From the NCBI RefSeq assembly GCF_900090315.1, contig NZ_FMHZ01000002.1:6046501-6110500 (forward strand): DNA of 64,000 nt, given 5' to 3'. This stretch comes from Micromonospora citrea. Its GTDB lineage: Bacteria; Actinomycetota; Actinomycetes; Mycobacteriales; Micromonosporaceae. The notes under the pieces are model-generated. The model saw only the letters and a program-made list of their open reading frames with translations. It did no database searches and had not been told where the DNA came from. The position numbers and the translations under genes were made by a program. Within the stretch, counting starts at the first letter, position 1. The number at the start of each line of letters is the position of its first letter. Below are positions 1-13,105 of this stretch, one piece after another.

Positions 1-344
1 CCCAGCTCGGTCGCCGCCTGGAAGCGGTGCAGGTCCAGCTCCTCCGGGCCGACCCGCAGCTGGTAGCCGGCGGCGCTGGCGACCAGCCGGTCGTCGCCGG
101 CGGGGCCGTCGTCCAGTGTGCACAGCAGCCGGCGCAGCCCGCTGGCGTAGGTGCGCAGGTTCGCCACCGCCGAGCGCGGCGGCTGGTCCCACAGCTCGCC
201 GACGAGGCGGTCCAGCGAGACCCGCTCGTTGGCCGACAGCAACAGCACGGCCAGCATCGCCCGTTGCTTCTGCGGGCCGACCGGCACGGCCCGCCCGCCG
301 GCGGTGATCCGGAGCGGGCCGAGGAGCCGGAATCGCAGGCTCAA
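1..344 (-). CDS. SARP/BTAD-family transcriptional regulator, N-terminal part (cut by window edge)
   Basis: The first 114 residues of a SARP-type activator are visible; the rest lies beyond the window. The N-terminus reads LSLRFRLLGPLRI and continues through a winged-helix OmpR-like DNA-binding region (QKQRAMLAVLLL, ERVSLDRLVGELW, AVANLRTYASGLRR), the usual opening of SARP/AfsR proteins. The start is taken as TTG at 344: a stop codon lies 13 codons upstream in frame and no ATG or GTG occurs in between. The gene is divergent from the cysteine-rich peptide gene at 510. The spacer holds 11/12-bp spaced direct repeats of the kind SARPs bind, so it probably activates that gene. Whether it also has NB-ARC and TPR domains, like the paralogue at 6707-9628, cannot be seen. 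Confidence 0.8.
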   Translation of the reverse strand, partial: MSLRFRLLGPLRITAGGRAVPVGPQKQRAMLAVLLLSANERVSLDRLVGELWDQPPRSAVANLRTYASGLRRLLCTLDDGPAGDDRLVASAAGYQLRVGPEELDLHRFQAATEL

Positions 345-429
345 GGCGTCTCGGTTCTGATGTGGTCCACCACGGCCAGCACCCTAGGAACGAGGTACGA
401 CGATCCGCAACGCCTCGACGGGTAACAGT

Positions 430-472
430 TTGTATCGATCTTGTAGGTCGCCGTGTAGCAGGCCCGCATACC
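430..472 (+). promoter_or_regulatory. Candidate SARP box and -10 element for the first Cys-rich peptide
   Basis: Three heptads, TTGTATC (430-436), TTGTAGG (441-447) and GTGTAGC (453-459), start 11 and 12 bp apart. SARP activators typically bind direct heptamer repeats at 11-bp spacing placed about 8 bp before the -10 box. Here CATACC (467-472) follows at about that distance, with no obvious -35 hexamer. The transcript would lead into the peptide gene at 510. The spacing is seen directly; the assignment to a SARP is inference. Confidence 0.55.
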
Positions 473-509
473 GTCCGCGATCAGTCCAGATTCTGATTGG
501 AGGTACACG

Positions 510-695
510 ATGACCCGTCACGTCGGCGCCCTGGCGGACCGGTTCCTGGCGCTCATGCTGCCCAAGACCACCGCCTCGGCCGCTTGTGAGCCGTTGTGCG
601 ACAACCGCTCGATCTGCTGCCGCTACACCTACACCCGGTTCAAGTGGCGCACCTGCAACAGCTCGTGCCAGTGCTGGTGGGGCCCGGACTGCTGA
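510..695 (+). CDS. Cys-rich precursor-like peptide A (61 aa, eight Cys)
   Basis: A 61-residue peptide with a strong ribosome site (GGAGG six bases before ATG). Residues 1-24 form a short amphipathic leader that is too polar and too weakly hydrophobic for an ordinary Sec signal, ending in A22-S23-A24. The remaining 37 residues contain eight cysteines (26, 30, 36, 37, 49, 53, 55, 61), several aromatic residues and five basic ones. The leader matches peptide B (6402-6641) without gaps at M1, T2, D10, L13, A14, L17, A22 and A24. A perfect GC hairpin and a membrane thioredoxin-fold gene follow. Likely product: a secreted disulfide-rich peptide of about 37 aa, perhaps a bacteriocin or signal. I do not recognise a named family; activity is unknown. 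Confidence 0.75.
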   Translation: MTRHVGALADRFLALMLPKTTASAACEPLCDNRSICCRYTYTRFKWRTCNSSCQCWWGPDC

Positions 696-709
696 GCAAC
701 CCCGTGAGC

Positions 710-742
710 GCGTCGCGGCCGGGCCGAGCCCGGCCGCGACGC
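710..742 (+). terminator. Hairpin after peptide A (possible attenuator)
   Basis: A perfect 15-bp stem (710-724 with 728-742) and 3-nt loop CGA, starting 14 bp after the peptide stop codon and ending 31 bp before the next gene. There is no T-tract. It could protect a short abundant peptide transcript or partly stop read-through into the processing genes. Peptide B has the same arrangement. Confidence 0.6.
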
Positions 743-773
743 CCCGGTGCCCATTCCCGTCAGGAGCTGACCC

Positions 774-1361
774 ATGCCCGTAGTCGTAGCCGTCCTCGTC
801 GTACTCACCATCCTCACGCTGCTGAACCTGCTGCTGATCTTCGGCGTGATCCGCAAACTGCGCGAGCACACGGAGGAGCTGGCCCGCGCCCGCCCACCGG
901 TGACCCTCGCGGTCGGCGCCCAGGTGCCCGACTTCACCGCGTCGACCGCCGACGGGGACGCGGTGTCCCTCGCCTCGCTGCGCGCGTCGGGCGGCCTGGT
1001 GGCCTTCCTCGCCCCCGACTGTTCGGGGTGCCAGGAGCAGCTACCCGACGTGCGGTCGGCGCTCGCCGAGGCGCTCGACACCCCGGCGGCGGTGCTCGTC
1101 GTGCTCACCCGGCTGCGCCCGGCCCCGGAGCGCGAGGAGAGCGAGCGCGCCGAACTGGTCGCCGCGCTGGGCGTGGCGGACAGCCGGGCGACCATCGTCC
1201 ACGAGCCGCTCGACGGGACGCTCCAGTCGTCCTTCCAGGTCGCCGCCTTCCCCACATTCTATCTAATCGACGCCGACGGGCGGGTCAGCGCTGTCAGCAA
1301 CAGCGCGGCCCAGCTACCCGGCCTGTCCCCGGGGCGCGACGTCGTGACCGCCGGGCGATGA
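774..1361 (+). CDS. Membrane-anchored TlpA/MauD-like thiol-disulfide protein A
   Basis: A 195-aa protein with an N-terminal membrane anchor (residues 3-25, VVVAVLVVLTILTLLNLLLI) followed by a thioredoxin fold. It contains PDF-TASTADGDAVSLASL, a C83-S-G-C86 redox motif after AFLAPD, and a cis-proline segment AAFPTFYLID. This is the layout of TlpA/ResA/MauD-type oxidoreductases acting outside the membrane. The start has an AGGAG site eight bases upstream. It follows the eight-Cys peptide gene in the same direction and is paralogous to the protein at 5844-6332. Likely role: oxidation or isomerisation of peptide disulfides together with the MauE-type protein at 1869. The last 48 bp overlap the opposite-strand peptidase gene tail to tail. 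Confidence 0.85.
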   Translation: MPVVVAVLVVLTILTLLNLLLIFGVIRKLREHTEELARARPPVTLAVGAQVPDFTASTADGDAVSLASLRASGGLVAFLAPDCSGCQEQLPDVRSALAEALDTPAAVLVVLTRLRPAPEREESERAELVAALGVADSRATIVHEPLDGTLQSSFQVAAFPTFYLIDADGRVSAVSNSAAQLPGLSPGRDVVTAGR

Positions 1362-1793
1362 CGCCAGGCCGGGCTGCCGGCCCGGATGCCGCGAGGCGGC
1401 CCGCAGCCGGCGGATGACGACACCGCGGACCAGCTCCGCCGGGAGCGCGCCGAAGGCCCGCGAGTCGAGGCTGTGCCGGGGCGCGTCCCCGAGGACGTAG
1501 ACCTCACCCGCCGGCAGCGCGGCCACCCGCTTGACCATCAACTGGGTGGCGGCGTCGGCGTCGCCGGCGGTGATCCTGATGCCGGGCGGCGGCAGGCAGA
1601 CGACGACGGCGCCGACCCGCAGCCGGTGCCGGAACCCTCGCCGGAGCACGAGGAGCTGGTCGCCCTCCTGGTACGTCGGGGTCATGCTGTCGCCGTTGAC
1701 CCCGACCACCTGGAGCAGGGCGCGGGCGACCAGCACGGCGGCCCCGAGTGTCACGACGGCGCCGACGGCGATCAGCAGAGTGGGTTCAGGCAC
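1314..1793 (-). CDS. S26-family signal peptidase A
   Basis: A 159-aa type I signal peptidase-like protein: one N-terminal transmembrane segment (about residues 5-27), the catalytic serine box GDSMTPT with S36, the lysine box MVKRV with K88, and box E-like GDAPRHSLDSRAFG. The start is inferred as GTG at 1793, which places the membrane anchor directly at the N-terminus; no strong ribosome site is visible. Unusually, it lies on the strand opposite to its neighbours: convergent with the TlpA-like gene (48-bp overlap) and divergent from the MauE gene (75-bp gap). In context it is a good candidate for removing the leader after A-x-A in the Cys-rich peptides. A general housekeeping role is unlikely given its location. 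Confidence 0.85.
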   Translation of the reverse strand: MPEPTLLIAVGAVVTLGAAVLVARALLQVVGVNGDSMTPTYQEGDQLLVLRRGFRHRLRVGAVVVCLPPPGIRITAGDADAATQLMVKRVAALPAGEVYVLGDAPRHSLDSRAFGALPAELVRGVVIRRLRAASRHPGRQPGLASSPGGHDVAPRGQAG

Positions 1794-1868
1794 CGCATCA
1801 CGGTAGCGGAGCGGCGGGGCAGAGGGCCTCCCTCTCGCCCGGGGGAGCGACAACAGGAGGCGGAGAGC

Positions 1869-2432
1869 ATGTCGTACGTGTCGGGGTTCAGCCAGTGCCT
1901 GCTCGCGCTGGTCTTCCTGGCGTCGGCCGCCGGCAAGCTGCGCGGGCGGCCCGCGTTCCGGGCGTTCGCCGACTCGCTGCGGACCATGGACCTGCTGCCG
2001 GCGCGGATGGTCGTCCCGGTGGCGGGTGCGGTGGTCGCCGCCGAGGCGGTCGTGCCCCTGCTGCTGGCGCCGCTGCCCGGAGCGGCGCTGACCACTGTCG
2101 GGTTCGCGCTGGCGGCGGCCCTGCTGGCGGCGTTCACCGTGGCGGTCGCGGTGGTGCTCCGTCGTGGCACGCAGGCGTCGTGCCGGTGCTTCGGGGAGGC
2201 GGCCGCCGCCCCGTTCGGCCGACACCATCTCGCCCGCAACGTCGTGCTGACCGTGGTCGCCGGGATCGGCGGGTACGCCGCATCGGGGGATCCCGGGACG
2301 ACGGTCGGGACCGCGGCGCTGTCCGTGCCGCTGGGCGTGGTGGGCGCGCTCGTCGTCGTGCGCCTCGACGACCTGGTCGCCCTGTTCTCGCCCGCCGCCC
2401 CGGCGGCGGCCGTGTCCCCTCGCGGCCGGTGA
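1869..2432 (+). CDS. MauE/DoxX-type redox-associated membrane protein A
   Basis: A 187-aa integral membrane protein with about four hydrophobic segments. The N-terminal SAAGKLRGRPAFRAFADSL stretch and the TQASC105RC107FGE motif are typical of the MauE/DoxX redox branch. In methylamine-utilisation operons MauE works with MauD to form the many disulfides of the dehydrogenase small subunit. Here a MauD-like TlpA protein lies 0.5 kb upstream and an eight-Cys peptide starts the set, so a role in peptide disulfide formation is the simplest inference. The start ATG has GGAGG about nine bases upstream. Paralogue: 3191-3691, which shares the CRCFG motif. Confidence 0.82.
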   Translation: MSYVSGFSQCLLALVFLASAAGKLRGRPAFRAFADSLRTMDLLPARMVVPVAGAVVAAEAVVPLLLAPLPGAALTTVGFALAAALLAAFTVAVAVVLRRGTQASCRCFGEAAAAPFGRHHLARNVVLTVVAGIGGYAASGDPGTTVGTAALSVPLGVVGALVVVRLDDLVALFSPAAPAAAVSPRGR

Positions 2433-2433
2433 C

Positions 2434-2501
2434 GACGCGGGTGGGCACGTCGGGGCCGCCGGACGGCCGCGCGGGCGGCCGGTCGGGGACCCACCCGCGT
2501 C
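2434..2501 (+). terminator. Long GC hairpin after MauE A
   Basis: Perfect 12-bp arms GACGCGGGTGGG (2434-2445) and CCCACCCGCGTC (2490-2501) enclose a further GC-rich structured loop. It begins just after the MauE stop codon and probably ends that transcript, leaving the secreted-protein gene at 2654 with its own promoter. Confidence 0.5.
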
Positions 2502-2653
2502 GCCGGCCTGACGGTGACGGCAGGTCACAGCGAAGCCCGGGGAGTCGCGGCGGGCCGGCCGGTCGAGCCGCCGGCCGGGGTGAGCCGCCCGTGAACCGAC
2601 GCCGGCCGACCAGCCGGCCCGCAGAACAGCACCCATCCAGAAAGGACGAAACC

Positions 2654-3058
2654 ATGAACATGCTGCGTCGGACCGCGTCCCTCACCGCGGCGACGGTGCT
2701 CGCCGTGGCCACCTCCGTCACGGTCGCCGCCGGGCCCGCCATGGCCGGTGAGAACGCCATGGCCTGGACGTACAGCGGCGGAACGGCGCGGGGGCAGGCC
2801 GTCTGGTACCACGACGGCGACAGCCTCAAGGTCTGCGACATGAGCGCCGACGGCCGGGGCATCCGGGGGGTCGTCTACTCGTACGACTCCGCGGGCGGAT
2901 TCTGGGTCAACGAGTTCTCGGTCGCCGACTCGAACTCCTCCGACGGCTGCAAGTACGGCTCGGAGAACGTGCCGGACGGGCGGCGGGTCGAGGTGGTGGT
3001 CTACCAGTACTGGTCCGACACGACGTGCTGCGCCGGCAGCTCGTACGGCGTGGCCTGA
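2654..3058 (+). CDS. Small Sec-secreted protein with four cysteines
   Basis: A 134-aa protein with a classical Sec signal peptide (MNMLRRTASL then a hydrophobic core, likely cleavage after AMA at about residue 32). The mature part is a small beta-rich domain with VCDMSADG, DGCKYG and a CC pair. The pattern, a short acidic and glycine-rich domain with a central V-C-D-x-x-A-D-G motif, is common in uncharacterised actinomycete secreted proteins. It lies at the edge of peptide set A, is followed by a bidirectional terminator, and faces set B. It could be a structural, immunity or unrelated secreted protein; no function can be assigned. Confidence 0.75.
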   Translation: MNMLRRTASLTAATVLAVATSVTVAAGPAMAGENAMAWTYSGGTARGQAVWYHDGDSLKVCDMSADGRGIRGVVYSYDSAGGFWVNEFSVADSNSSDGCKYGSENVPDGRRVEVVVYQYWSDTTCCAGSSYGVA

Positions 3059-3153
3059 GCTGACCGTGGGACGGCCGCCCGTTCGGGGGCCGGCGGGCCG
3101 TGACCGGTCCGTCGGTGGCGGCCACCCGCGAGCCGCGAGGCACACCGGCCGCG

Positions 3154-3187
3154 CCGAGGGGCCGCGGGTACGCCCGCGGCCCCTCGG
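3154..3187. terminator. Bidirectional terminator between the two peptide gene sets
   Basis: A perfect 15-bp stem (3154-3168 with 3173-3187) and a TACG tetraloop sit between convergent genes ending at 3058 and 3191. The symmetric arms suit both directions. Confidence 0.75.
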
Positions 3188-3190
3188 GGG

Positions 3191-3691
3191 TCACGTGCGG
3201 CTGGCCGCGCCGAACAGGTAGCGCAGCTCGTCCAGCATGACGACCAGCACACCGACGGCCAGCGCGGCGACGCCGGCCAGGACCGCCTCGCCCGGGCGTA
3301 CCGGCCCGGCCGGTGCGAGCGCGCCGGCGACGGCGCAGCCGACGAGGAACGCGTTGCGCCACACGTGGTGCCAGCCCAGGGGCGCGGCGGTGCGGCCGAA
3401 ACAGCGGCAGGTGCCGCCGCCGCGCCGCAGGTTCACGACGATGGCGGTGGTGAAGGCGACCAGCAGGGCGCCCGAGACCAGGAACCCGCCCAGCGGGAAC
3501 ACCGCCAGCAGTGCGACGGCGGCGAACTCGGCGGCGACCACCGCCGCGGCGAGCGGACCGGCCGGTCGCAGGCCCATGTCGCGCACCGAGCGCGTGAACT
3601 CGCGGTAGGCGTCGCGCCCGGAGACCTTGCCGACGGCCGCCGCCAGCAGGACCGTGCCGAGCAGCACCCGGCACCCGATCTCGACGTACAT
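3191..3691 (-). CDS. MauE/DoxX-type redox-associated membrane protein B
   Basis: A 166-aa polytopic membrane protein with AAAVGKVSGRDAYREF near the N-terminus and GGGTC95RC97FGRT after the third hydrophobic segment, the same layout and CRCFG motif as the copy at 1869-2432. It is the last gene of the leftward set B operon, three bases after the S26 peptidase gene. By analogy with MauE it should pass oxidising equivalents to, or work with, the TlpA-like protein encoded in the same operon (5844-6332) during folding of the eight-Cys peptide. Quinone coupling is possible but cannot be read from the sequence. Confidence 0.82.
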   Translation of the reverse strand: MYVEIGCRVLLGTVLLAAAVGKVSGRDAYREFTRSVRDMGLRPAGPLAAAVVAAEFAAVALLAVFPLGGFLVSGALLVAFTTAIVVNLRRGGGTCRCFGRTAAPLGWHHVWRNAFLVGCAVAGALAPAGPVRPGEAVLAGVAALAVGVLVVMLDELRYLFGAASRT

Positions 3692-3694
3692 GTG

Positions 3695-4006
3695 TCATCG
3701 CCTCCCTCTGGCCACCCCGAGGATCGCCTCGGGTGGCACCGCCCCGAAATGCCGCGAGTCCTGGCTGCGGGCGTTGTCCCCGCGCACCGTCACGGCGCCG
3801 TCCGGTTCGACCCGGTGCACCCGCTTGACCATCCAGGTCAGGTCCGCCTCCGGGACGACGTCGCGGGCCCGGAAGACGACGAGGTCGCCGACGACCGGCG
3901 CCCGCCCGACGCGGACGAGGAGCCGGTCGCCGTCGTGCAGCGTCGGCGCCATGCTCTGCCCGCGGACGACCACTAGGCGCCAGCGGCGGCGCAGCCAGCC
4001 GGTCAC
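3695..4006 (-). CDS. S26-family signal peptidase B (short form)
   Basis: A compact 103-aa peptidase: GQSMAPTLHDGD with catalytic S18, DLTWMVKRV with catalytic K61, and box E-like RGDNARSQDSRHFG. It lacks the clear N-terminal membrane anchor of the 159-aa copy at 1314-1793; only a short basic-hydrophobic stretch (WLRRRWRLVVV) precedes the serine. The GTG start overlaps a TGA stop as GTGA, created by a 59-bp tandem duplication at the junction with the ABC transporter gene. Likely leader peptidase for peptide B. How it holds to the membrane is unclear: it may dock onto the ABC exporter or MauE. Confidence 0.83.
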   Translation of the reverse strand: MTGWLRRRWRLVVVRGQSMAPTLHDGDRLLVRVGRAPVVGDLVVFRARDVVPEADLTWMVKRVHRVEPDGAVTVRGDNARSQDSRHFGAVPPEAILGVARGRR

Positions 4007-4096
4007 GTCGCCGCCAGATGGTAGCCGTCGGCCTGGAGCCAGCGGGGGCGCAGCCAGCCGGTCACGTCGCCGCCAGCTGGTAGCCGTCGGCCTGGA
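3979..4096. repeat. 59-bp tandem duplication at the ABC-transporter/peptidase junction
   Basis: Units 3979-4037 and 4038-4096 are identical except at two positions (3987 versus 4046 and 4018 versus 4077). The unit contains the last codons of the ABC transporter gene and the first codons of the peptidase gene. As a result a TGA/GTGA overlap occurs twice (4062-4065 and 4003-4006), with a 20-codon open frame between them that repeats the transporter's C-terminal LQADGY-LAAT. Confidence 0.9.
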
Positions 4097-5840
4097 GGCG
4101 GAACAGCCGGGCGTACTCGCCGTCGGCCGCCATCAGCTCGTCGTGCGTACCGGACTCGACGACGCGTCCGGCGCCCAGCACGACGATGCGGCGCGCGTCG
4201 CGCAGGGTGCCGAGCCGGTGGGAGATCAGCAGCCCGGTGCGGCCGTGGCGGATCCGCGTCAGCGAGGCGTGCACGCGGGTCTCGGCGTCGGCGTCGAGCC
4301 CGGAGCTGGGCTCGTCCAGGATGAGCAGGTCGGCGTCGGCGCGCATCAGGGACCGGGCCAGCGCGACCCGCTGCCACTGCCCGCCGGAGAGCGTCACGCC
4401 GGGCTCGCCGTCCTGGTCGGCGAAGGTACGGCTGAGCAACGTGTCGTAGCCGTGGGGCAGCGCGCGGAGGCGGTCGTGGATCTCGGCGCGCGTGGCGGCC
4501 TCCTCGACCTGTGCGGCCGTGTGCGGCAGCCGGCCGATGCCGACGTTCTCGGCGGCGGTGAGGTCGTAGCACATGAAGTCCTGGAACACCGCCCCGATCC
4601 GCTGGCGCACCGTCTCGATCCGCAGCTCGCGCAGGTCCACCCCGTCCCAGGTGATCCGGCCCCGGTCGGGGTCGTAGAACCGGCAGAGCAGCTTGACGAG
4701 GGTGCTCTTGCCGGCCCCGTTGAGCCCGACGAGTCCGACGGCCTCACCGGCGGTGATCGTGAGGTCGACGCCCCGGAGGATCCAGGGGCCGTCCTCGTCG
4801 TAGCGGAACCACACGTCCTCGAACCTGATCGCGGTGCGCAGCGGCGGCGCCGGCAGGGTCCCGTCGGTCAGATCGGTGGGAGTGTCGAGAACGGCGACGT
4901 AGTGGCGGAACAGCCGCATGGCGGCGCCGGCCTCGCCGAGCTGGGCGGCGATGCCGGCCAGGCCGCTGTGCGCCGCGGTGAACGCGGCCAGCAGGAGGGT
5001 GAGGTCGCCGAGGCTGAGCCGGCCACGGACCGTGGCGTTCACCGCGAACACCGTCGCGGTGAGGGTCACCGCGGCGCCGGCCAACGCCCAGCACGCCTGC
5101 ACCGTCGTGGTGTGCCGCGCGGCGGCCAGCTCGATGTGGGCGGCCGAGCGCACCGCGCCGGTGAGCCGGTCGTGGAAGAACCGGCCGAGGTGGTAGAGGC
5201 GCACCTCCCGGGCGGCGCGCAGGTCGGTCAGCACGGCCTGGAACAGGAACCGGGCCCGGAACAGGCCGGCGCTGTCCTCCACCGCCCGCGCGGTCCGCCG
5301 GGACAGCCGCAGTTGGATGAGGAACTCGGGCACCGCCACGGCGAGCAGGAGCAGACCGGCCGGCGGCCAGAGGGACGCCAGGATCACGGCGAAGCCGCCG
5401 ATGGTGACGACGTTCTGGGCCACGTCGACCGCGAACATGACGACCACGTACGGCGCCTGGGTGGCGGCCTGCTGGGCCAGCGCCAGCCGGTCGCGCAGGG
5501 CCGGCTGCTCGAAGGGGCCCAGGCCGAGGAAGCTGTTCAGTTTCTGGTACAGCCGCACGTCGGCGGCGATCGTGATGGCGTTCTGCAGCGCGGTGGTGAA
5601 GTAGCCGGAGACGCGGCTGGCGATCGCCGCCAGGGCTCCCAGGACGGCGATCGCCACCGCATACCAGGTCGCGGTCGACGGGTTGGCCGAGCCGCCCCTG
5701 CTGACCTCGTCGAACAGCAGCTTCGTGAACCACGCGATGCCGAGCGGTGGCGCCGCGCCGACGACGACGAGGGCCACCATGGCGGCGAGCGCCTTCCGGT
5801 CGGCGCAGCCCAGCCGCAGCGCGGCTCGCAGCGTGGCCAC
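4062..5840 (-). CDS. ABC transporter, fused membrane and ATPase domains (peptide exporter)
   Basis: A 592-aa half-transporter: a six-helix exporter-type membrane domain (about residues 15-310) and an ATPase domain with Walker A GLNGAGKST (about 372-380), signature LSGGQ, Walker B LLILDEPSS and H-loop SHR. There is no N-terminal C39 peptidase domain, so leader removal must be done by another protein; the S26 gene directly downstream fits. It lies in the leftward set B operon between the TlpA-like and peptidase genes, with a 3-bp gap upstream and an ancestral stop/start overlap downstream. Probably exports peptide B, and possibly peptide A since set A shows no exporter in the window. Acts as a homodimer by family analogy. 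Confidence 0.88.
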   Translation of the reverse strand: MATLRAALRLGCADRKALAAMVALVVVGAAPPLGIAWFTKLLFDEVSRGGSANPSTATWYAVAIAVLGALAAIASRVSGYFTTALQNAITIAADVRLYQKLNSFLGLGPFEQPALRDRLALAQQAATQAPYVVVMFAVDVAQNVVTIGGFAVILASLWPPAGLLLLAVAVPEFLIQLRLSRRTARAVEDSAGLFRARFLFQAVLTDLRAAREVRLYHLGRFFHDRLTGAVRSAAHIELAAARHTTTVQACWALAGAAVTLTATVFAVNATVRGRLSLGDLTLLLAAFTAAHSGLAGIAAQLGEAGAAMRLFRHYVAVLDTPTDLTDGTLPAPPLRTAIRFEDVWFRYDEDGPWILRGVDLTITAGEAVGLVGLNGAGKSTLVKLLCRFYDPDRGRITWDGVDLRELRIETVRQRIGAVFQDFMCYDLTAAENVGIGRLPHTAAQVEEAATRAEIHDRLRALPHGYDTLLSRTFADQDGEPGVTLSGGQWQRVALARSLMRADADLLILDEPSSGLDADAETRVHASLTRIRHGRTGLLISHRLGTLRDARRIVVLGAGRVVESGTHDELMAADGEYARLFRLQADGYQLAAT

Positions 5841-5843
5841 GGC

Positions 5844-6332
5844 TCAGGCCAGGACCGGAAGCTGGTGGCTGGCGCCGACGACGACGCCGTCGACGATCGA
5901 CAGCACGGCGGGGAACCCCTTGACCCGGAACTCCCTCTCGGCCTGCGCCTCGGAGATCGTCGCCGTGTCGAAGCCGGCGAGGCGGGGGGCCATCGCGGCC
6001 GTCTCCGCCGGCGTGCCGATCATGAACACGAGGGTGTCGTGGCGGTAGCGCGCGGCGTCGTCGGTGAGGGCGTCCAGGAGATCCTGGCAGGGCGGGCAGG
6101 TGGGGGTCAGCATGACCACCGTGCGCCGGCCGGTGGCCAGGTCGGCGTGCGGGGAGCCGCTGACGTCCAGGCCCGGGGCGGGCAGCACCTCGGGAACGGG
6201 TTCGCCGTCGTGGTCGTGGCCGTGGCCGGCCTGCACCTCGCGCAGCCGCCGGGCGAGGGCCAGAGTCAGGACGAGGTTGAGCGCGGCGACGGCGCCGACG
6301 ACGGCGATGGCGGCGTAGGCGAAACCCGACAT
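5844..6332 (-). CDS. Membrane-anchored TlpA/MauD-like thiol-disulfide protein B
   Basis: A 162-aa protein with an N-terminal anchor (residues 5-27), a His/Asp-rich linker (HGHDHDGE) and a thioredoxin-type domain with C79-P-P-C82 in LTPTCPPCQDLL and the cis-proline segment VKGFPAVLSI. The CPPC active site differs from the CSGC of the set A copy, which may mean a different redox potential. The start has GAGGAG upstream. It follows the peptide B gene and its hairpin and precedes the ABC exporter by three bases. Expected outside the membrane, oxidising or shuffling disulfides of the exported peptide together with MauE B. Confidence 0.85.
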   Translation of the reverse strand: MSGFAYAAIAVVGAVAALNLVLTLALARRLREVQAGHGHDHDGEPVPEVLPAPGLDVSGSPHADLATGRRTVVMLTPTCPPCQDLLDALTDDAARYRHDTLVFMIGTPAETAAMAPRLAGFDTATISEAQAEREFRVKGFPAVLSIVDGVVVGASHQLPVLA

Positions 6333-6359
6333 GGAAACTCCTCGGCGAGTCGGAGGGGT

Positions 6360-6387
6360 GGGGGCCGCGCCGGACGGCGCGGCCCCC
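6360..6387 (-). terminator. Hairpin after peptide B (possible attenuator)
   Basis: A perfect 12-bp GC stem (6360-6371 with 6376-6387) and tetraloop lies 14 bp downstream of the peptide B stop codon and before the TlpA-like gene. The same arrangement follows peptide A, suggesting a shared way of keeping precursor mRNA above processing-gene mRNA. Confidence 0.6.
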
Positions 6388-6401
6388 GAGGGGAAGTCAG
6401 G

Positions 6402-6641
6402 TCAGCAGACGCCGACCTTCTTGGTGTAGCAGATCGACCGCGACGTCGAGGTCACGCAGGAGCCGTAGCAGTTGTAGTAGCCCTGCCGGTAGTAGCGGAA
6501 GTAGTAGCCGCCCGAGCAGTAGCCGTTGGACGCGACGCACCCGCACGCCTGGCCGTTCTCCGGCACGCAGGCACCGGCCTCCTCGCGGCCGAGCACCTTG
6601 GCGAGGACGGCGTCGCCGACGCGGGTCATCATCTTGGTCAT
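6402..6641 (-). CDS. Cys-rich precursor-like peptide B (79 aa, eight Cys)
   Basis: A 79-aa peptide with a near-perfect ribosome site (AAGGAGGT) before ATG 6641. Residues 1-24 are a short amphipathic leader (D10, L13-A14, L17, R19) ending A22-G23-A24. The remaining 55 residues hold eight cysteines (25, 33, 35, 42, 58, 62, 71, 79) and a tyrosine-rich centre (GYYFRYYRQGYYNCYG). Like peptide A it ends exactly on a cysteine and has one CxC and one CxxxC pair. It is the second gene of a leftward set: SARP regulator, peptide, TlpA-like, ABC exporter, S26 peptidase, MauE. Probably exported and cleaved after A24, then folded with up to four disulfides. Function unknown; antimicrobial or signalling roles are both possible. 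Confidence 0.75.
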   Translation of the reverse strand: MTKMMTRVGDAVLAKVLGREEAGACVPENGQACGCVASNGYCSGGYYFRYYRQGYYNCYGSCVTSTSRSICYTKKVGVC

Positions 6642-6706
6642 GGCAGACCTCCTTAGTGGGTGGTTGCCATCACTGTGCTGACCGCCGCTGCGCGCGCCCT
6701 GCGCTT

Positions 6707-9628
6707 CTACTGCGCGTCGGCTGCGCTCCGCCAGCGCGGCAGCGATTCGCGCAGGTCGTCGGCGTACGGGGAGTCGAAGTGCGCGAAGATGCCCAGCGCC
6801 TCCTCGCCCAGCACGACCGCCCGGTCGTACCTGCCGAGGGTGGCCTGCGCCCGCGCCAGCAGGTGCAGCGAGTTCGCCAGCGGGAACGGCTGCCCGACGT
6901 CGCGCAGCATCGCCACCGAGCCCTCCAACTCCACCACCGCCCGGTCCGCGTCGCCCCCCTCCAGGTGCGCCTTGCCGAGCAGCCGCCGGGAGATCGCCTC
7001 GCCCCACTCGTGACGCATCTCGTGGAACGCCAGCACCGTACGCCGCAGCAGCCGTCGGGCCGACTCGCCGTTCCCGGCCGCGAGGTGCGTCGCGGCCAGC
7101 GCCTGCTCGGCCGTGGTCACGCTCATCCGGTCGCCGAGCCGGCGCGCGGCGGCCACCGCCTGCCGGAGCTGCTCCACGGCCGGCGGCCACCGCTCGGCGT
7201 GCCGGTGCAGCAGCCCGATGGTCTCCCGCGCGAGCGCCTCGCCCCACAGGTCGCCCTCGTCGACGAAGACCCGCAGGGCGGCGGCGCAGGCGGCCTCGGC
7301 GAACGGGGAGGTGAGGTGGTACTGCCCGTACCGCATGCCGAGGGCCAACAGCACGTGCCCGCCGACGGGGCCGACCGGCCAGTGCGCGGCGCACAGCCGC
7401 ACCATCACCAGCAGCGCGGCGTCCGCCTCCCGCAACCGACCGAGGTGGCGGCAGCACAGCGAGTAGTTCTGCAGCGCGGCGAGGCGGTGCGCCACCCACG
7501 GCCCGCGGCTGTCCCGCTGTGCCGCGCGCAGCAGCGGAACCGCCTCGGCGTGCCGGTTCAACCACCCGTACGCCGTGCCCAGGTGCAGCCGCAGCGACAT
7601 CCGGGTCGGCGCCGACAGTTCGGCGTGGCGGTCGAGCACGCCGCGCAGGCAGTCGACGAACTCGGGCAGGTGCTGACTGCGCATCGTCGCGAAGTTGCCC
7701 ATCGTGCAGGCCAGGCGTCCGGCCAGGTCGACCGCGCCGAGCCGCAGCAGGTCCCGCACCGCCGCGACCAGGTTCTCCCGCTCCGCCTCGAACCATTCGA
7801 CCGCCTCCCAGGCGTCGATCGTGGGCCCCGCGTCAGCCACCGGCAGGGCCCCGCAGGGCAGCGACGCCCCGGCCCGCCCGGCGTACGCGTGCAGCCGTTC
7901 GTACCAGGCGATCACCTCCTCGACGGGAACCTCGGTGCGTTCCCGGGCGACGAGCCTGACCAGGTCGTGCATGCGTACCCGGCCGCTGGGATCGTCGGTC
8001 AGCAGGTGGGCCCGGCACAGCTGTTCCAGCAGCGGCTCGGAGGTCTCGTCCCACATGCCGAAGCTGCGCAGCGACGTACGGCTGAGCACCGCGAGCAACC
8101 GCGCGGCGGGCGGTGGCAACCGCTCGAACCCGACGGTGAAGCTGCTGCGCACGTCGAGCCCGTCGAGTGACAGCTCGTCGAGGCGGCGTCGCTCGTCGCG
8201 CAGCCGCTCGCGCAGCCGCGCCACGGTCATCGCCTCCCGCTCGGCCAGCCGCACGCCGGCGATGCGCAACGCGAGCGGCAGGCGACCGCACAGCTCCACG
8301 ACGTCGACGGCGGCCCCGGCCTCCCGGTTGATCCGCTCGGCGCCGGCGAGCCCGGCCAGCAGGTCCACGCCGTCGTCGACCGGCAGCAAGTCGAGCGGAA
8401 CGACCTCGGTGCCCGGCAGGCCGGGCAGCGCCCCCGTGCTGGTGACCAGGGCGGTGCTGCCGCCGGGCGGCAGCAGCGGGCGCACCTGCGCCGCGTCCGC
8501 CGCGCTGTCCAGCATCACCAACATGGTCTGGTCGGCGAGCACGGAGCGGTACAGCGCCGCGCGTTCCTCGGCCGCGACCGGAATGGCCTCGCCGGCTATC
8601 CCGAGGGCGCGGAGGAACGCGCCGAGCACCGCGCCGGGCCGGGCCGGGTCCGGGGTGTTGCCGCGCAGGTCGGCGTAGAGGCACCCCGCGGGGAAGCGGT
8701 GGCGGCTCTCGTGCGCCGCCCGTAACGCCAGCGTGGTCTTGCCCGTTCCCGCCAGCCCGGTCACGACGATCACCTGGGCCACGCCGGCGGCCGGTGGGGT
8801 ACGCCCCAGCAACGACAGCAGCAGCCCCAGCTCCTTGTCGCGCCCGACGAAGTCACCGGTGACCCCGGGCAGCTGATGGGGACGCACCCACGCGCGCGGG
8901 GACGTCTCCCGCTCGCTGCCCAGGATCTCCCGGTGCAGTTGCCGCAGCTCGGGGCCCGGATCGATGCCGTGCTCCTCGGCGAGCAGCCGGGCCCCGGCCC
9001 GGTACACGGCGAGCGCCTCCGCCTGCCGGCCGCTGCGGTGCAGGGCCACCATGAGGTGGCCGCGCAGTCGCTCCCGCAGCGGCCGGTCCCGCACCAGTGT
9101 GGTCAGCTCGGGCACGACCTCCTGATGCAGGCCGAGCGAGAGCAGTGCCTCGAAGCGCAGCTCGACCGCGTTCTCGCGCAGCTCGTGGAGCCGGTCCCGT
9201 TCGAAGTCGACGAGCCTCGCCCCGACGTCGACGAACGCCTCGTCGCGCCATCGGGCGAGCGCCCGGTCGAGCAGCTCGACCGTGCAGCGGGGGTCGGTGG
9301 CGGCTGCGGCGGCCTGCACGTCGGCGGCGAACTCCGCCGCGTCCACGACCACGACGGGGTTCAACTGGTAGCCGGGCGAGCGGGTGAGGATCAGCTCCGG
9401 CGTCGCACCGCGCCGGACGGAGGCGACGACCGCCTGGACCCGGTTGCGCGCCCCCGCGGGCGGATCGTTCGGCCAGAGCCCGTCGATCAGGCGGTCGACG
9501 GAGACGATGCGTCCATGGTGGGCCGCCAGGCTCGCGACGAGTGCCCGCTCCAACGGGGCGAGCGACACCACCACCCCGTCGACGCTCAACTCGGTCCGCC
9601 CGAGGATGCCGATCCGATAGCCACGCAC
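6707..9628 (-). CDS. AfsR-like SARP regulator with NB-ARC and TPR domains
   Basis: A 973-aa regulator starting at GTG 9628. The order is: winged-helix DNA-binding region (residues 1-90, YRIGILGRTELSVDG, RIVSVDRLIDGLWP), BTAD helical domain (about 95-240, ending DPGPELRQLHREIL), an NB-ARC nucleotide switch (GLAGTGKTT at about 290, MLVMLDSAAD, GRLPLALRIAG), then a long TPR-like helical region to the end. This is the classical AfsR/SARP layout for pathway-specific activators of secreted or secondary products. It is the first gene of the leftward set, 65 bp before peptide B. It may control both peptide sets or only its own. No clear ribosome site precedes the GTG. Confidence 0.88.
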   Translation of the reverse strand: MRGYRIGILGRTELSVDGVVVSLAPLERALVASLAAHHGRIVSVDRLIDGLWPNDPPAGARNRVQAVVASVRRGATPELILTRSPGYQLNPVVVVDAAEFAADVQAAAAATDPRCTVELLDRALARWRDEAFVDVGARLVDFERDRLHELRENAVELRFEALLSLGLHQEVVPELTTLVRDRPLRERLRGHLMVALHRSGRQAEALAVYRAGARLLAEEHGIDPGPELRQLHREILGSERETSPRAWVRPHQLPGVTGDFVGRDKELGLLLSLLGRTPPAAGVAQVIVVTGLAGTGKTTLALRAAHESRHRFPAGCLYADLRGNTPDPARPGAVLGAFLRALGIAGEAIPVAAEERAALYRSVLADQTMLVMLDSAADAAQVRPLLPPGGSTALVTSTGALPGLPGTEVVPLDLLPVDDGVDLLAGLAGAERINREAGAAVDVVELCGRLPLALRIAGVRLAEREAMTVARLRERLRDERRRLDELSLDGLDVRSSFTVGFERLPPPAARLLAVLSRTSLRSFGMWDETSEPLLEQLCRAHLLTDDPSGRVRMHDLVRLVARERTEVPVEEVIAWYERLHAYAGRAGASLPCGALPVADAGPTIDAWEAVEWFEAERENLVAAVRDLLRLGAVDLAGRLACTMGNFATMRSQHLPEFVDCLRGVLDRHAELSAPTRMSLRLHLGTAYGWLNRHAEAVPLLRAAQRDSRGPWVAHRLAALQNYSLCCRHLGRLREADAALLVMVRLCAAHWPVGPVGGHVLLALGMRYGQYHLTSPFAEAACAAALRVFVDEGDLWGEALARETIGLLHRHAERWPPAVEQLRQAVAAARRLGDRMSVTTAEQALAATHLAAGNGESARRLLRRTVLAFHEMRHEWGEAISRRLLGKAHLEGGDADRAVVELEGSVAMLRDVGQPFPLANSLHLLARAQATLGRYDRAVVLGEEALGIFAHFDSPYADDLRESLPRWRSAADAQ

Positions 9629-9976
9629 GGCGCAAAGCTAGCGCGGTCTGCGCCCTTTGTGCCCGGACGTCCACGACGGCCGCGGCGCAGGAGCGCTGGT
9701 CACGGCGTCCCGGCCCGACGATCGTGACCAGAGCCACTGCCGGTCACGGCGTCCCGGCCCGACGATCGTGACCGGAGCCACTGCCGGCCGGGTCCGGGCG
9801 GCCGGTCGGGCGCGAACGCCCCGACGGGATCCGACAGCCCGCGACGGCCGGTGTGATGCCCGGCCGGCATCCCGCGTGGCGAACCGGCGGAGTCGGCGAT
9901 CTTGGGCGCGTCCACTGTGGGATCATGGCCGCCCGTGCGCGCGGTCTCCGCGCGCCAGAATCATGTGGAGGTACGG
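9629..9976. other. Divergent spacer between SARP B and the secreted-protein gene
   Basis: This 348-bp spacer has no credible gene. An inverted repeat GGCGCAAAG (9629-9637) / CTTTGTGCC (9655-9663, one mismatch) abuts the SARP start codon, and a 44-bp tandem duplication lies at 9698-9785. Promoters for both directions are expected here but no convincing -35/-10 pair was found. Confidence 0.6.
9698..9785. repeat. 44-bp tandem repeat, each unit with an inverted GGTCACG/CGTGACC pair
   Basis: Units 9698-9741 and 9742-9785 differ at one base (9730 versus 9774). Each contains GGTCACG and CGTGACC as 7-bp inverted arms 17 bp apart, so four half-sites lie in line about 70 bp upstream of the SARP start. 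It could be a duplicated operator for a dimeric regulator, or paired hairpins in a leader transcript. Confidence 0.85.
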
Positions 9977-10435
9977 GTGCGCGGATCAGCGCGACGACTG
10001 GCCGTCTCGATTCTCGCCGCGACCGTCGCGGCGATGGGGCTCGCCTCGCCCGCCCAGGCGGCGACGAATCCGTTCACCGCGGCGCAGGCGTGCAACAACG
10101 ACTTCGGCGGCTCGTGGGCCTACGCCAGCGACGGTCACCGGTCGATCTACCACTCCGACGGCACCAAGGTCGGCGACGTCTACCTGATGTACAACGGTGC
10201 GACCGGCTACAACTGCGTCGCCACCCTCAAGCGGGTGGCCGTCGGCTCGACGACCGGGGTGTCGGCGGGGATCCGGGTGGAGGGCGGCTCCTGGGTCGAG
10301 GACCCCGGAAACTACAAGTACTACGCCGCCATCCAGCGCTCCGCCGTCGACAAGTGCGTCATGTACCGCGGCGAGGTCATGTACTTCACGAGTTGGGTGA
10401 GCGCGGGTCGGTCCAGTTGGGGCAACTGCGGCTGA
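9977..10435 (+). CDS. Small secreted protein resembling spore-associated protein A
   Basis: A 152-aa protein starting at GTG 9977, with GGAGG five bases upstream. The Sec signal peptide (VRGSARRLAVSILAATVAAMGLASPAQA) is cut at about residue 32. The mature domain has four cysteines (QACNNDF, GYNCVATLK, DKCVMYRGE and the terminal NCG) and the YLMYNGATGYNC-V pattern I associate with the streptomycete spore-associated protein family. Function of that family is not established. It is divergent from the SARP B gene and ends before a strong terminator, so it is a single-gene transcript. Its link to the Cys-rich peptide sets is only positional. Confidence 0.7.
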   Translation: MRGSARRLAVSILAATVAAMGLASPAQAATNPFTAAQACNNDFGGSWAYASDGHRSIYHSDGTKVGDVYLMYNGATGYNCVATLKRVAVGSTTGVSAGIRVEGGSWVEDPGNYKYYAAIQRSAVDKCVMYRGEVMYFTSWVSAGRSSWGNCG

Positions 10436-10450
10436 GTTCCCGCGCGTCGG

Positions 10451-10495
10451 GGGCGGCCCCGGGCGCGTCGCATCGGCGACGGCCCGGGGCCGCCC
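10451..10495 (+). terminator. Terminator after the secreted-protein gene
   Basis: A perfect 14-bp stem (GGGCGGCCCCGGGC at 10451-10464 with its complement at 10482-10495), with further pairing inside the loop and followed by CCTTTG. Confidence 0.8.
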
Positions 10496-10624
10496 CCTTT
10501 GTCGTTCCGGGGTCGCAGACGGCGTCCCGACGGCGGCGAGCCGCGCCTCGTCCGGCGCCGATCCTGGCGGAGTCGAGGGCCCGGGGGGCACCGATGATCG
10601 AAAATGCAATAAACACGCGGGATA

Positions 10625-10665
10625 TTTACATGATATTGCGATGTCTGGCAGGCTCTAGCTATATC
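10625..10665 (+). promoter_or_regulatory. Promoter/operator region of the beta-galactosidase gene
   Basis: An island of low G+C in an otherwise GC-rich spacer. TTGCGA (10636-10641) and TATATC (10660-10665), 18 bp apart, form a plausible promoter. Overlapping it is ACATGATATTGCGATGTC (10628-10645), with ACAT/ATGT inverted arms. A similar ACAT-GATATTG-GATGTC arrangement lies at the transporter promoter (15540-15569), suggesting a shared operator, perhaps for the DeoR regulator at 13278. Confidence 0.45.
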
Positions 10666-10756
10666 GACAATCGTCACCGCGCTCGCGATCCGGCCTCGTC
10701 CCCCGGGCCCGGCCGCCGCCGGCGTGCCGACGACGCCTGCCTGCGAAGGAGAGACC

Positions 10757-13105
10757 ATGCGACGGCGTCAACTCCTCACTGTGAGTGTGCTCAGCCCGTT
10801 CGCGGCGATGCTGGCGTCGGGCGGCCCCGCCCGCGCCGCCGCCGCGGCACAGACCTTCGGCTTCTCCGCCGACGGCAGCAACTTCCTGCTCGACGGCCGG
10901 CCCTTCCAGATCCGCAGCGGGGAGATGCACCCCGCCCGGATCCCCGTGCAGTACTGGCGGCACCGGATCCAGATGGCCAGGGCGATGGGCCTGAACACGA
11001 TCGCCATCTACGTCATGTGGAACCACGTCGAGGAACGCCCCGGCGTCTTCGACTTCACCACCGACCGGCGCGACATCGCCGGCTTCGTCCGGCTGTGCCA
11101 GGCCGAGGGCATGTACGTGCTGCTGCGCCCCGGTCCGTACGTCTGCGCCGAGTGGGACCTCGGCGGTCTGCCGCCGTACCTGCTGCGCAACCCGAACATC
11201 AGGCTGCGGGTGCGCACCGCGGCCGACCCGCACTACATGGCGGCCGTCGCCCGCTACGTCAACGCGCTCGCCGCGCAGGTCAGGCCCCTCATGGTCGCCG
11301 ACGGCGGGCCGATCCTGATGGTCCAGGTCGAGAACGAGTACGGGTCGTACGGCACCGACGTCACCTACCTGGAGGAGCTGCGGCGGCTCTGGCTCGACGC
11401 CGGAATCGCCGGTCCCTTCTACACGGAGGACGGCCTCGGCTACGTGCAGGCCAACCGCACCGTCGTCGCCGGCGGGGCGATCGCGCTCAGCGGGGGCGAC
11501 GCCGCGGCGATCGCGGCGGCGCGCCGCTCCTTCCCGGCCGTGCCGGCCATGTCGGGCGAGCTCTACTCGGGCTGGCTGACCCACTGGGGCGACGGCGGCT
11601 TCGCCGGATCGAACACCGACATCTCCAGCCAGTTGCAGGGCCTGATGGCCGGCAACCTGTCGTTCAACATCTACATGGTCCACGGCGGCACGAACTTCGG
11701 GTACTCGGCGGGCGCGAACGCCGCCGACAACGGGTCCGGCTACCAGCCGGACATCACCAGCTACGACTACGGCGCGCCGATCACCGAACAGGGCCGACCG
11801 GCCCGCCTGTACCCCACCTACCGCGAGATCATCGGTACGGCGCTCGGCGCGCCGCTGCCGGCCGTGCCGGCACCGATCCCCACCATCGTGCGCACCGGCG
11901 GCCAGGCGGTGCTGCCGGCGCCGTACGCCTCGCTCTGGGACAACCTGCCCGCCGCGCTGCCGCCCGCGCAGACGGTGAACCCGCAGCCGATGGAGATGTA
12001 CGGCCAGAACTCCGGCTTCATACTCTACCGCCGGGTGCTGCCGGGCTACACGGGCGGCAGGCTGGAGGTCAGGTCGGTGCGCGACTACGCGACCGTCTTC
12101 CTCGACGGCGTCTACCAGGGGGGCATGTCCCGCAGCAACCTCGCGCCGTCCTACACCGGCCCGCTGGGGGTGACCGTGCAGGACGCGCCGCTGCCGCTGA
12201 AGACCTCGGCGAGCGGCAGCCCCACCCTCGACATCCTGGTCGAGGGCATGGGCCGGACGAACTACGGCCAGGCCCTGGTCGACCGCAAGGGCATCCTGGA
12301 ACGGGTGTCGTTGCTCGACGCGGGCGCCCTGACCGGCACCCTGACCGGGTGGCAGACCCACCTGCTCCCCGTCGACGAGGCGTTCGTGGCCGGGCTCAGG
12401 CCGGTCGTCGGCGACAGCTCGCGGCCGGGCATCTTCTTCAAGGCCACGGTCAACCTCACCCAGACCGGCGACACGTACCTCGACATGTCCCGCTGGACCA
12501 AGGGCGTGGTCTGGGTCAACGGGCGCAACCTGGGCCGCTACTGGAAGGTGGGGCCGCAGCAGCGGCTCTACTGCCCGGCGCCCTGGCTGCGGGTCGGGGC
12601 CAACGAGATCGTCGTCTTCGACCTGCACCAGGTGCAGGCGCAGCCGATCCCATTCGAGGCCACCCTGAGCGGGCAGGCGGGCGCCACCCGCCACAGCGTG
12701 GTCAACCGGGCCAGCGGCAAGGCCCTGGACGTGCCGGGCTGGTCCCGGGACACCGGCGTCCAGCTGATCCAGTGGAGCCCCAACGGCGGGGCCAACCAGG
12801 TGTGGCTGATGGCGGGCGCCGCGGGCGGCGTCACCACGATGACCAGCGTCCACTCGCAGCTGCTCGCCGACGTGGAGGGCGCCTCCACCGCCGACGGCGC
12901 CCGGGTCATCCAGTGGACCGCGCACGGCGGCGGCAACCAGCAGTGGCGGGTCGTCGCCGTCTCCACCGACTTCGTCAAGCTCGTCAACGTGCGCAGCGGC
13001 AGGGTCCTCGGCGTGGCGGACCGGGCGACCACCGACGGGGCGGCCGTCGTGCAGCAGAGCGACACCGGCGACCCGAGCCAGCACTGGCGGCTCACTCCGG
13101 CCTGA
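10757..13105 (+). CDS. Secreted GH35 beta-galactosidase with ricin-type lectin domain
   Basis: A 782-aa exported glycosidase with a GAAGGAGAG ribosome site. The N-terminus MRRRQLLTVSVLSPFAAML has a twin-arginine-like motif, cut near ARA. The GH35 barrel follows: GEMHPARIPVQYWRHRI, RPGPYVCAEWDLGGLP, the acid/base glutamate in GGPILMVQVENEYGSYG, and the nucleophile glutamate in MSGELYSGWLTHWGD. Beta-sandwich domains lie in the middle (YLDMSRWTKGVVWVNGRNLGRYW). The last about 130 residues are a three-repeat ricin B-type beta-trefoil (ASGKALDV, QLLADVEGASTADG, GRVLGVADRATTDG with Q-x-W repeats). It removes terminal beta-galactose from external glycans. It starts the sugar island and is followed by a terminator and the DeoR gene. 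Confidence 0.92.
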   Translation: MRRRQLLTVSVLSPFAAMLASGGPARAAAAAQTFGFSADGSNFLLDGRPFQIRSGEMHPARIPVQYWRHRIQMARAMGLNTIAIYVMWNHVEERPGVFDFTTDRRDIAGFVRLCQAEGMYVLLRPGPYVCAEWDLGGLPPYLLRNPNIRLRVRTAADPHYMAAVARYVNALAAQVRPLMVADGGPILMVQVENEYGSYGTDVTYLEELRRLWLDAGIAGPFYTEDGLGYVQANRTVVAGGAIALSGGDAAAIAAARRSFPAVPAMSGELYSGWLTHWGDGGFAGSNTDISSQLQGLMAGNLSFNIYMVHGGTNFGYSAGANAADNGSGYQPDITSYDYGAPITEQGRPARLYPTYREIIGTALGAPLPAVPAPIPTIVRTGGQAVLPAPYASLWDNLPAALPPAQTVNPQPMEMYGQNSGFILYRRVLPGYTGGRLEVRSVRDYATVFLDGVYQGGMSRSNLAPSYTGPLGVTVQDAPLPLKTSASGSPTLDILVEGMGRTNYGQALVDRKGILERVSLLDAGALTGTLTGWQTHLLPVDEAFVAGLRPVVGDSSRPGIFFKATVNLTQTGDTYLDMSRWTKGVVWVNGRNLGRYWKVGPQQRLYCPAPWLRVGANEIVVFDLHQVQAQPIPFEATLSGQAGATRHSVVNRASGKALDVPGWSRDTGVQLIQWSPNGGANQVWLMAGAAGGVTTMTSVHSQLLADVEGASTADGARVIQWTAHGGGNQQWRVVAVSTDFVKLVNVRSGRVLGVADRATTDGAAVVQQSDTGDPSQHWRLTPA

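Follow-up and report, generated by a model that had tools for sequence, protein, structure and literature searches.

The window analysed here, a stretch of 64,000 nucleotides from the soil bacterium Micromonospora citrea (contig NZ_FMHZ01000002.1, positions 6,046,501 to 6,110,500), begins with two sets of genes, each grouped around a short precursor peptide with eight cysteines. In set 1, peptide A (510..695, plus strand) is a 61-residue precursor with a leader running to ...TTASA24 and a core, A25-C61, delimited by a predicted cut site. The same strand encodes a TlpA/MauD-like thioredoxin-fold protein with a hydrophobic N-terminus (774..1361; AhpC-TSA, E 2.8e-10, which passes the cut-off) and a MauE membrane protein carrying a CRCFG motif (1869..2432; PF07291, E 1.2e-24); an S26 signal-peptidase-type protease with a GTG start lies on the opposite strand (1314..1793, minus; PF10502, E 1.6e-16), and a SARP regulator is divergent. 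Only the N-terminal end of this regulator falls within the window (1..344, minus strand), the rest lying to its left (full gene L025:7348-10383; BTAD and a weak Trans_reg_C match). Beyond it, ~2.6-4.6 kb left of the window, is the ABC exporter of set 1 (L025:5429-7384). Set 2 is a compact minus-strand run comprising a SARP regulator with ATPase and TPR regions (6707..9628; BTAD, E 8.1e-37, and also Trans_reg_C), the peptide B precursor (6402..6641; 79 residues, leader to ...EEAGA24, core C25-C79, the cut site again predicted), a TlpA-like thioredoxin-fold protein with a CPPC motif (5844..6332), an MsbA-like ABC exporter (4062..5840; PF00005, E 6.7e-32, and PF00664, E 2.7e-8), an S26 signal-peptidase-type protease (3695..4006; PF10502, E 1e-14) and a second CRCFG-bearing MauE membrane protein (3191..3691; PF07291, E 1.7e-22). 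GGAGG-type ribosome-binding sites precede both peptide open reading frames (ORFs). Taken alone, the TlpA-like protein of set 2 passes no Pfam cut-off and was assigned from the family model and its CxxC; both window TlpA proteins score far below the MauD cut-off (E 0.0084 for that of set 2).

The first-pass annotation of this DNA had described two eight-cysteine peptides, each with a SARP regulator, a TlpA-like protein, a MauE and an S26 peptidase, a description borne out by the ribosome-binding sites and the Pfam or family matches given above. It had also counted a single ABC exporter, an artefact of the window's edge: set 1 has its own exporter just to the left, so that each of the two sets is complete. 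The notion of two parallel sets is correct for the window but falls short for the genome, where a third set at L019 combines a 10-cysteine peptide with MauE, TlpA, ABC, S26 and SARP genes; in all, this genome yielded three peptides of the family (E 0.01; 150 of 275 candidates scored). As had been noted, the set 2 exporter has no C39 match in Pfam, and we found no class-defining enzyme of lanthipeptides, lasso peptides, thiopeptides or sactipeptides among the genes scanned, from the set 1 exporter to window position 13105.

Peptides A and B have no Pfam or NCBIfam match at E 1. Given that MauE is useless as a bait (350 of 354 genomes of the window's taxonomic family match it), we searched for relatives with peptide profiles, one built from seven peptides (A1) and one from 38 (A2). 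Profile A1 matched in 99 of the 354 family genomes (E <=0.01; 17 candidates scored per genome), and profile A2 in 28 of 394 genomes sampled from the class (E 0.01; 15 scored), in 18 of 41 genomes of the taxonomic family (E 0.001; up to 150 scored) and in 2 of 149 phylum-wide genomes, one of them the window's own (E 0.001; up to 41 scored), a figure which doubles as a specificity control. A scan of 36 named loci spans Micromonospora, Paractinoplanes, Hamadaea, Catellatospora, Longispora, Phytomonospora, Actinorhabdospora, Streptomyces, Embleya, Streptoalloteichus, Nonomuraea, Actinomadura, Amycolatopsis, Actinosynnema, Kibdelosporangium, Lentzea and one unclassified actinobacterial assembly; peptide B has 36 named relatives and peptide A belongs to a family of 9. 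The homologous clusters that the annotation had proposed to look for thus exist in many genera, with machine genes beside independently found peptides. By tblastn against plasmids, we also found tandem six-cysteine peptides carrying the same leader; they sit on large plasmids in two strains of Embleya (L010:8790-8960 and 9001-9171; L011:8793-8963 and 9001-9171), where the gene table does not annotate them, and on the one plasmid examined in more depth they have a TlpA-like gene, an ABC exporter and an S26 gene as neighbours. No relative was found in IMG/VR with peptide B or among phages with a Lentzea relative (tblastn), and a PDB search with the family profile gave nothing significant, its two chance matches scoring E 0.45 and 0.52. 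Ratios of nonsynonymous to synonymous substitution rates support constraint for the A and third families and do not support it for family B (0.96). Rows L210-L214 (E > 0.005), L198 and a G074 row that is not an ORF were left out of the peptide set; recoding at TGA or TAG codons inside some matches was considered and rejected, as the L189 peptide ends before the stop and one G074 row contains no ORF. The A and B peptides define a large, almost uncharted actinobacterial family, with a shared leader reaching to an AxA motif and hypervariable, cysteine-rich cores.

To ask what accompanies these peptides, we compared 81 test loci, namely 80 of the first 82 A1 matches outside the window's own genome (two being skipped as lying inside regions already taken) and the own third peptide, with 20 control regions placed at round coordinates in genomes of the same set. 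Within 5 kb of the peptide (E 1e-8), S26 was present in 72 test loci, ABC in 72, TlpA in 70, SARP in 60 and MauE in 56, as opposed to 0, 2, 2, 1 and 0 control regions, respectively. The neighbour models were trained on pooled ORFs, which somewhat favours the test loci, but the contrast with the controls is still large; a few loci are truncated where a contig or stretch stops (L094, L097 and L113, for example). Among the 36 named loci, TlpA occurs in 34, ABC in 33, S26 in 33, MauE in 24 and SARP in 14; 13 of these loci were already among the 81, and the other 23 give 22, 21, 21, 15 and 2 in the same order. Gene order differs by peptide type and gene content is mostly kept. In 47 diverse loci, a search for conserved neighbours by blastp clustering (E 1e-6, a threshold that divergent genes could escape) revealed no modifying enzyme or further system-like gene that recurs, in line with the earlier statement that enzymes of the lanthipeptide, lasso and thiopeptide type are lacking. 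The other recurring groups comprise one antisense to the ABC gene in 6 loci and groups found in 3-6 of the 47 at scattered distances; judged by eye, these resemble LysR regulators, permeases of the MFS and FtsX types, and DinB-like, AMP-binding and MarR-like proteins, and one more looks like an ORF in a wrong frame.

The leader has ~24 residues and is charged and weakly hydrophobic, its commonest letters being LGDRLL, then LVP, then AxA. The AxA motif precedes the core in 177 of 180 distinct leaders, and lies at most four residues from the first cysteine in 128 of 131, against a mean of 13 after shuffling. By a crude test, the maximal 12-residue hydropathy of 131 leaders has a median of 1.06 (range 0-1.67), compared with 2.13 and 2.33 for two Sec-like signals in the window; a Sec or Tat route was rejected, the leaders being devoid of a hydrophobic core. 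The occurrence of an S26 protease beside an AxA site, together with an ABC exporter that lacks C39, suggests that export and trimming are uncoupled. The peptides differ in this from class II bacteriocins with C39 exporters: no C39 match was found, and the leader ends in AxA rather than in a GG-type motif.

All 131 distinct peptides (from 145 rows) have an even number of cysteines, with 4 in one, 6 in 48, 8 in 58 and 10 in 24, and the same holds for each of the 48 core-sequence clusters into which they fall. Parity is kept even where the count changes, as in the A-type relative L126, which has six cysteines where its kin carry eight. Among 51 further matches from two peptide-rich genomes (G074 and G344), 49 are even, one has seven cysteines and one is not an ORF; the lone seven-cysteine peptide has one of them in its leader and six in its core, so that all 50 further cores are even. 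Overall, 180 distinct members have an even core count, whereas small cysteine-containing ORFs of the control regions divide into 92 even and 170 odd (the minimum of three cysteines favours odd). Full pairing into disulfides predicts such evenness, which thioethers, azoles and metal sites do not require. Taken together, co-occurrence and parity show that the arrangement of these sets is far beyond chance.

These data bear on two other ways of reading the sets. The peptides could be precursors of thioether- or azole-containing ribosomally synthesized and post-translationally modified peptides (RiPPs), akin to lanthipeptides, sactipeptides or thiopeptides, whose enzymes are encoded elsewhere, TlpA and MauE serving only to keep the cysteines reduced before modification. 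In keeping with this, TlpA relatives can act as reductants, the cores hold serine (9.1%) and threonine (8.0%) besides cysteine, and the genome has other RiPP genes, such as a thiomuracin-type precursor at L023. However, TlpA and S26 proteins usually work on the outer side of the membrane, on substrates already exported, the surroundings of the 47 diverse peptides share no recurring modifying enzyme, and neither thioethers to serine or threonine nor azoles would call for 131 even counts out of 131, which makes this reading improbable. Slightly less probable still is that the products are secreted proteins that bind or deliver metal, in the manner of a metallothionein or chaperone, with TlpA and MauE assembling the metal site: the peptides are cysteine-rich, and MauE and TlpA relatives have also been tied to enzyme and metal-site maturation, but hypervariable cores with shifting cysteine spacing, positive charge (net positive in 121 of 131 cores and negative in none) and up to 51 matches in a genome are unlike a conserved metal site, and metal binding demands no parity.

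Several residues of the machine proteins do not vary: the S26 serine and lysine are invariant (75 rows), as are the CxxC of the TlpA-like proteins (74 rows), which also share an invariant proline and a hydrophobic N-terminal stretch, and the CxC of MauE within CRCFG (58 rows). The dipeptide inside the CxxC varies widely (PP, EH, SG, AP and others), which may reflect tuning to different cores. MauE is not nearby in about a third of the loci, so that TlpA, ABC and S26 form the core of the machine and MauE is a frequent partner. Between set 1 and set 2, identity is 46% for ABC, 37% for TlpA, 52% for MauE and 54% for S26, while sets of the same type in other genomes have a mean identity of 73-86% to the window sets; by these identities, the two window sets are old. 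In ABC and TlpA trees, the A-type and third-type sets each form a single group and the B-type requires two label changes, far fewer than after shuffling; judged from these identities and trees, the machine proteins track peptide type.

Deeper scoring (E 0.001) gave 51 peptide matches in G074, 28 each in G344 and G325, 22 in G350, 16 in G345, 11 in G346 and 9 each in G331 and G142, a few of which contain stop codons. Strong TlpA matches (E <=1e-25) number 2 in G074, 2 in G344, 3 in G325, 17 in G350, 1 in G345, 1 in G346, 7 in G331 and 5 in G142, so that two arrangements can be distinguished, one near 1:1 (G350, G331 and G142) and one in which peptides greatly exceed TlpAs (G074, G344, G325, G345 and G346). 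We read the neighbourhoods of 41 of the 51 G074 matches and 10 of the 28 G344 matches, one row being a non-ORF, and 46 of these 50 peptides have no TlpA, ABC, S26 or MauE gene within ~4.6 kb. G345 and G346 each carry one complete S26-ABC-TlpA-MauE block, and G344 has one such block that includes a peptide; gene content therefore points fairly clearly to processing in trans in G344-G346. It is less clear for G074: weighing against it, the TlpA-bearing stretches retrieved from G074 and G325 are incomplete, with no ABC in either, and those of G074 also have neither S26 nor MauE; lone ABC and S26 genes are found close to other peptides of G074. The annotation had postulated dedicated redox proteins for each peptide, which fits the window but does not extend to genomes where peptides far outnumber TlpAs, nor to the many loci without MauE. 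We consider it probable, though well short of secure, that the peptides form a leader-defined class with disulfides as the only modification, organized in the manner of venoms, in which a constant machine of ABC, S26, TlpA and often MauE matures hypervariable cores; in some actinobacteria, the peptide genes would have multiplied to dozens, unlinked and served in trans by one or a few machines.

Previous work had come close to such loci. A 2020 study (decRiPPter, PMC7794033) describes in its text three candidate families from Streptomyces that contain mauE, one of them also mauD, in each of which the precursor has at least eight cysteines, and its authors proposed a role in precursor modification; the filter used required a transporter, a peptidase and a regulator. 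Both window sets resemble these candidates in joining mauE to an eight-cysteine precursor, along with ABC, S26 and SARP genes; the decRiPPter families are, unlike the present one, a candidate list, and the comparison is one of published descriptions rather than precursor sequences. The term "new class" given to the window peptides therefore has to be qualified, the idea being partly in print: mauE candidates with eight or more cysteines had been listed in that paper. Neither in the decRiPPter account of these families nor elsewhere in the open-access literature, which leaves most subscription papers outside its scope, did we see the leader family, S26/AxA logic, even-cysteine rule or large, dispersed repertoires described. 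The MauD/MauE pair has been proposed, as cited in PMC7794033, to form disulfides during maturation of methylamine dehydrogenase. The feature shared here is a MauE with CxC (PF07291) together with a TlpA-like protein with CxxC; the differences are that no other mau gene occurs among the window genes scanned and that the substrate would be a short exported peptide.

By kind, the nearest characterised peptides are actifensin and laterosporulin. Actifensin, a defensin-like bacteriocin of Actinomyces, is described in the main text of PMC6989792 as having a leader, a 37-residue core with six cysteines and a mass reduced by ~6 H. Like the present family, it is actinobacterial with up to several precursors per genome; it differs in its GA-type cleavage motif and in an operon with several ABC genes, a subtilisin-like protease and a LuxR regulator, and the words thioredoxin and signal peptidase are absent from that main text (PMC6989792). 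Laterosporulin, a defensin-like class IId bacteriocin of Brevibacillus, is an antibacterial peptide, small and disulfide-rich as the core of peptide B would be, but is called leaderless in its PDB title. AlphaFold2 folds the B core confidently (pLDDT score 94.2), and the two best Foldseek matches are laterosporulins (4ozk, probability 0.89; 6lwy, 0.72), followed by a match at 0.13; the resemblance is weak (E 0.24, TM-score < 0.5). These observations bear on what the products are for. The same disulfide-rich peptides could serve the producer's own biology, in development, signalling or protease inhibition, a use that we regard as less likely, though by no means remote: the patchy distribution (18/41 family and 28/394 class genomes), the hypervariable cores and the large repertoires fit antagonism better, and the nearest fold to the B core, if weakly so, is that of a bacteriocin.

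Based on all of the above, we propose, with a probability of about three in four, that the window holds two of three genomic copies of an actinobacterial system making small, secreted, disulfide-rich peptides that are likely antagonistic, a proposal that largely upholds the annotation's reading of leader removal and oxidative folding. The SARP regulator would switch the cluster on, and the leader, given its conservation and the linkage of the genes, would guide the precursor to its ABC exporter. Once it is outside the membrane, the S26 protease would cut it after AxA, just before the first cysteine, and the TlpA-like protein would oxidise or reshuffle the cysteines through its CxxC, MauE with its CRCFG motif recharging it or passing electrons on, as proposed for MauD and MauE of methylamine dehydrogenase. 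The product would be a cationic peptide whose cysteines are all paired, in 2 to 5 disulfides; its most likely role is antibacterial or similarly antagonistic, which is the least certain step. Leader and machine would stay constant and the core vary, with a small number of machine genes seeming to serve many unlinked peptides in certain genomes. The products would be best filed with ribosomal, disulfide-rich, bacteriocin-like peptides, the dedicated oxidative-folding module being the new feature. Disulfide-rich miniproteins are valued as stable scaffolds and antimicrobials, yet most known examples come from animals or plants, along with a handful of bacteriocins; the present family is a widespread bacterial source that brings a folding machine of its own and a leader apparently compatible with widely differing cysteine-rich cores. 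The system offers a searchable family, a testable pathway of oxidative folding for peptides, a possible production platform and a likely role for many actinobacterial MauE/TlpA pairs, and in genomes with up to 51 matches the purpose of such repertoires becomes directly testable.

Six other MauE loci that we examined in the Micromonospora citrea genome contain no peptide of the family. Elsewhere in this genome (C2, near 470,900), a separate 66-residue peptide with six cysteines in knottin-like spacing (L023:12562-12762, minus strand; Pfam Conotoxin, E 0.0017, below the cut-off) has a leader unlike that of the A/B family. Its cluster (with 8136-12419, minus strand) includes a lasso-B2-like protein (E 0.015, below the cut-off), a 484-residue protein without a significant family match, a MauE whose C-terminal extension bears a CxxC, and an S9 peptidase, and may be a second disulfide-rich peptide system. 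The thiomuracin/GE37468-type thiopeptide precursor mentioned above lies at L023:4127-4312 (minus strand; NCBIfam NF033399, E 6e-27). At L021:10001-11425 (plus strand), immediately following genes for a MauE and a thioredoxin-like protein, a protein with a twin-arginine-type signal and eight cysteines is encoded, another MauE-linked cysteine-rich protein that probably takes a different export route. In the window itself, two small proteins with Sec-like signals and a few cysteines have no Pfam match (2654-3058, plus strand, between set 1 and set 2; and 9902-10435, plus strand), and 10724-13105 (plus strand) encodes a family 35 glycosyl hydrolase that also bears a ricin-type lectin domain (Pfam, E 1.6e-90).

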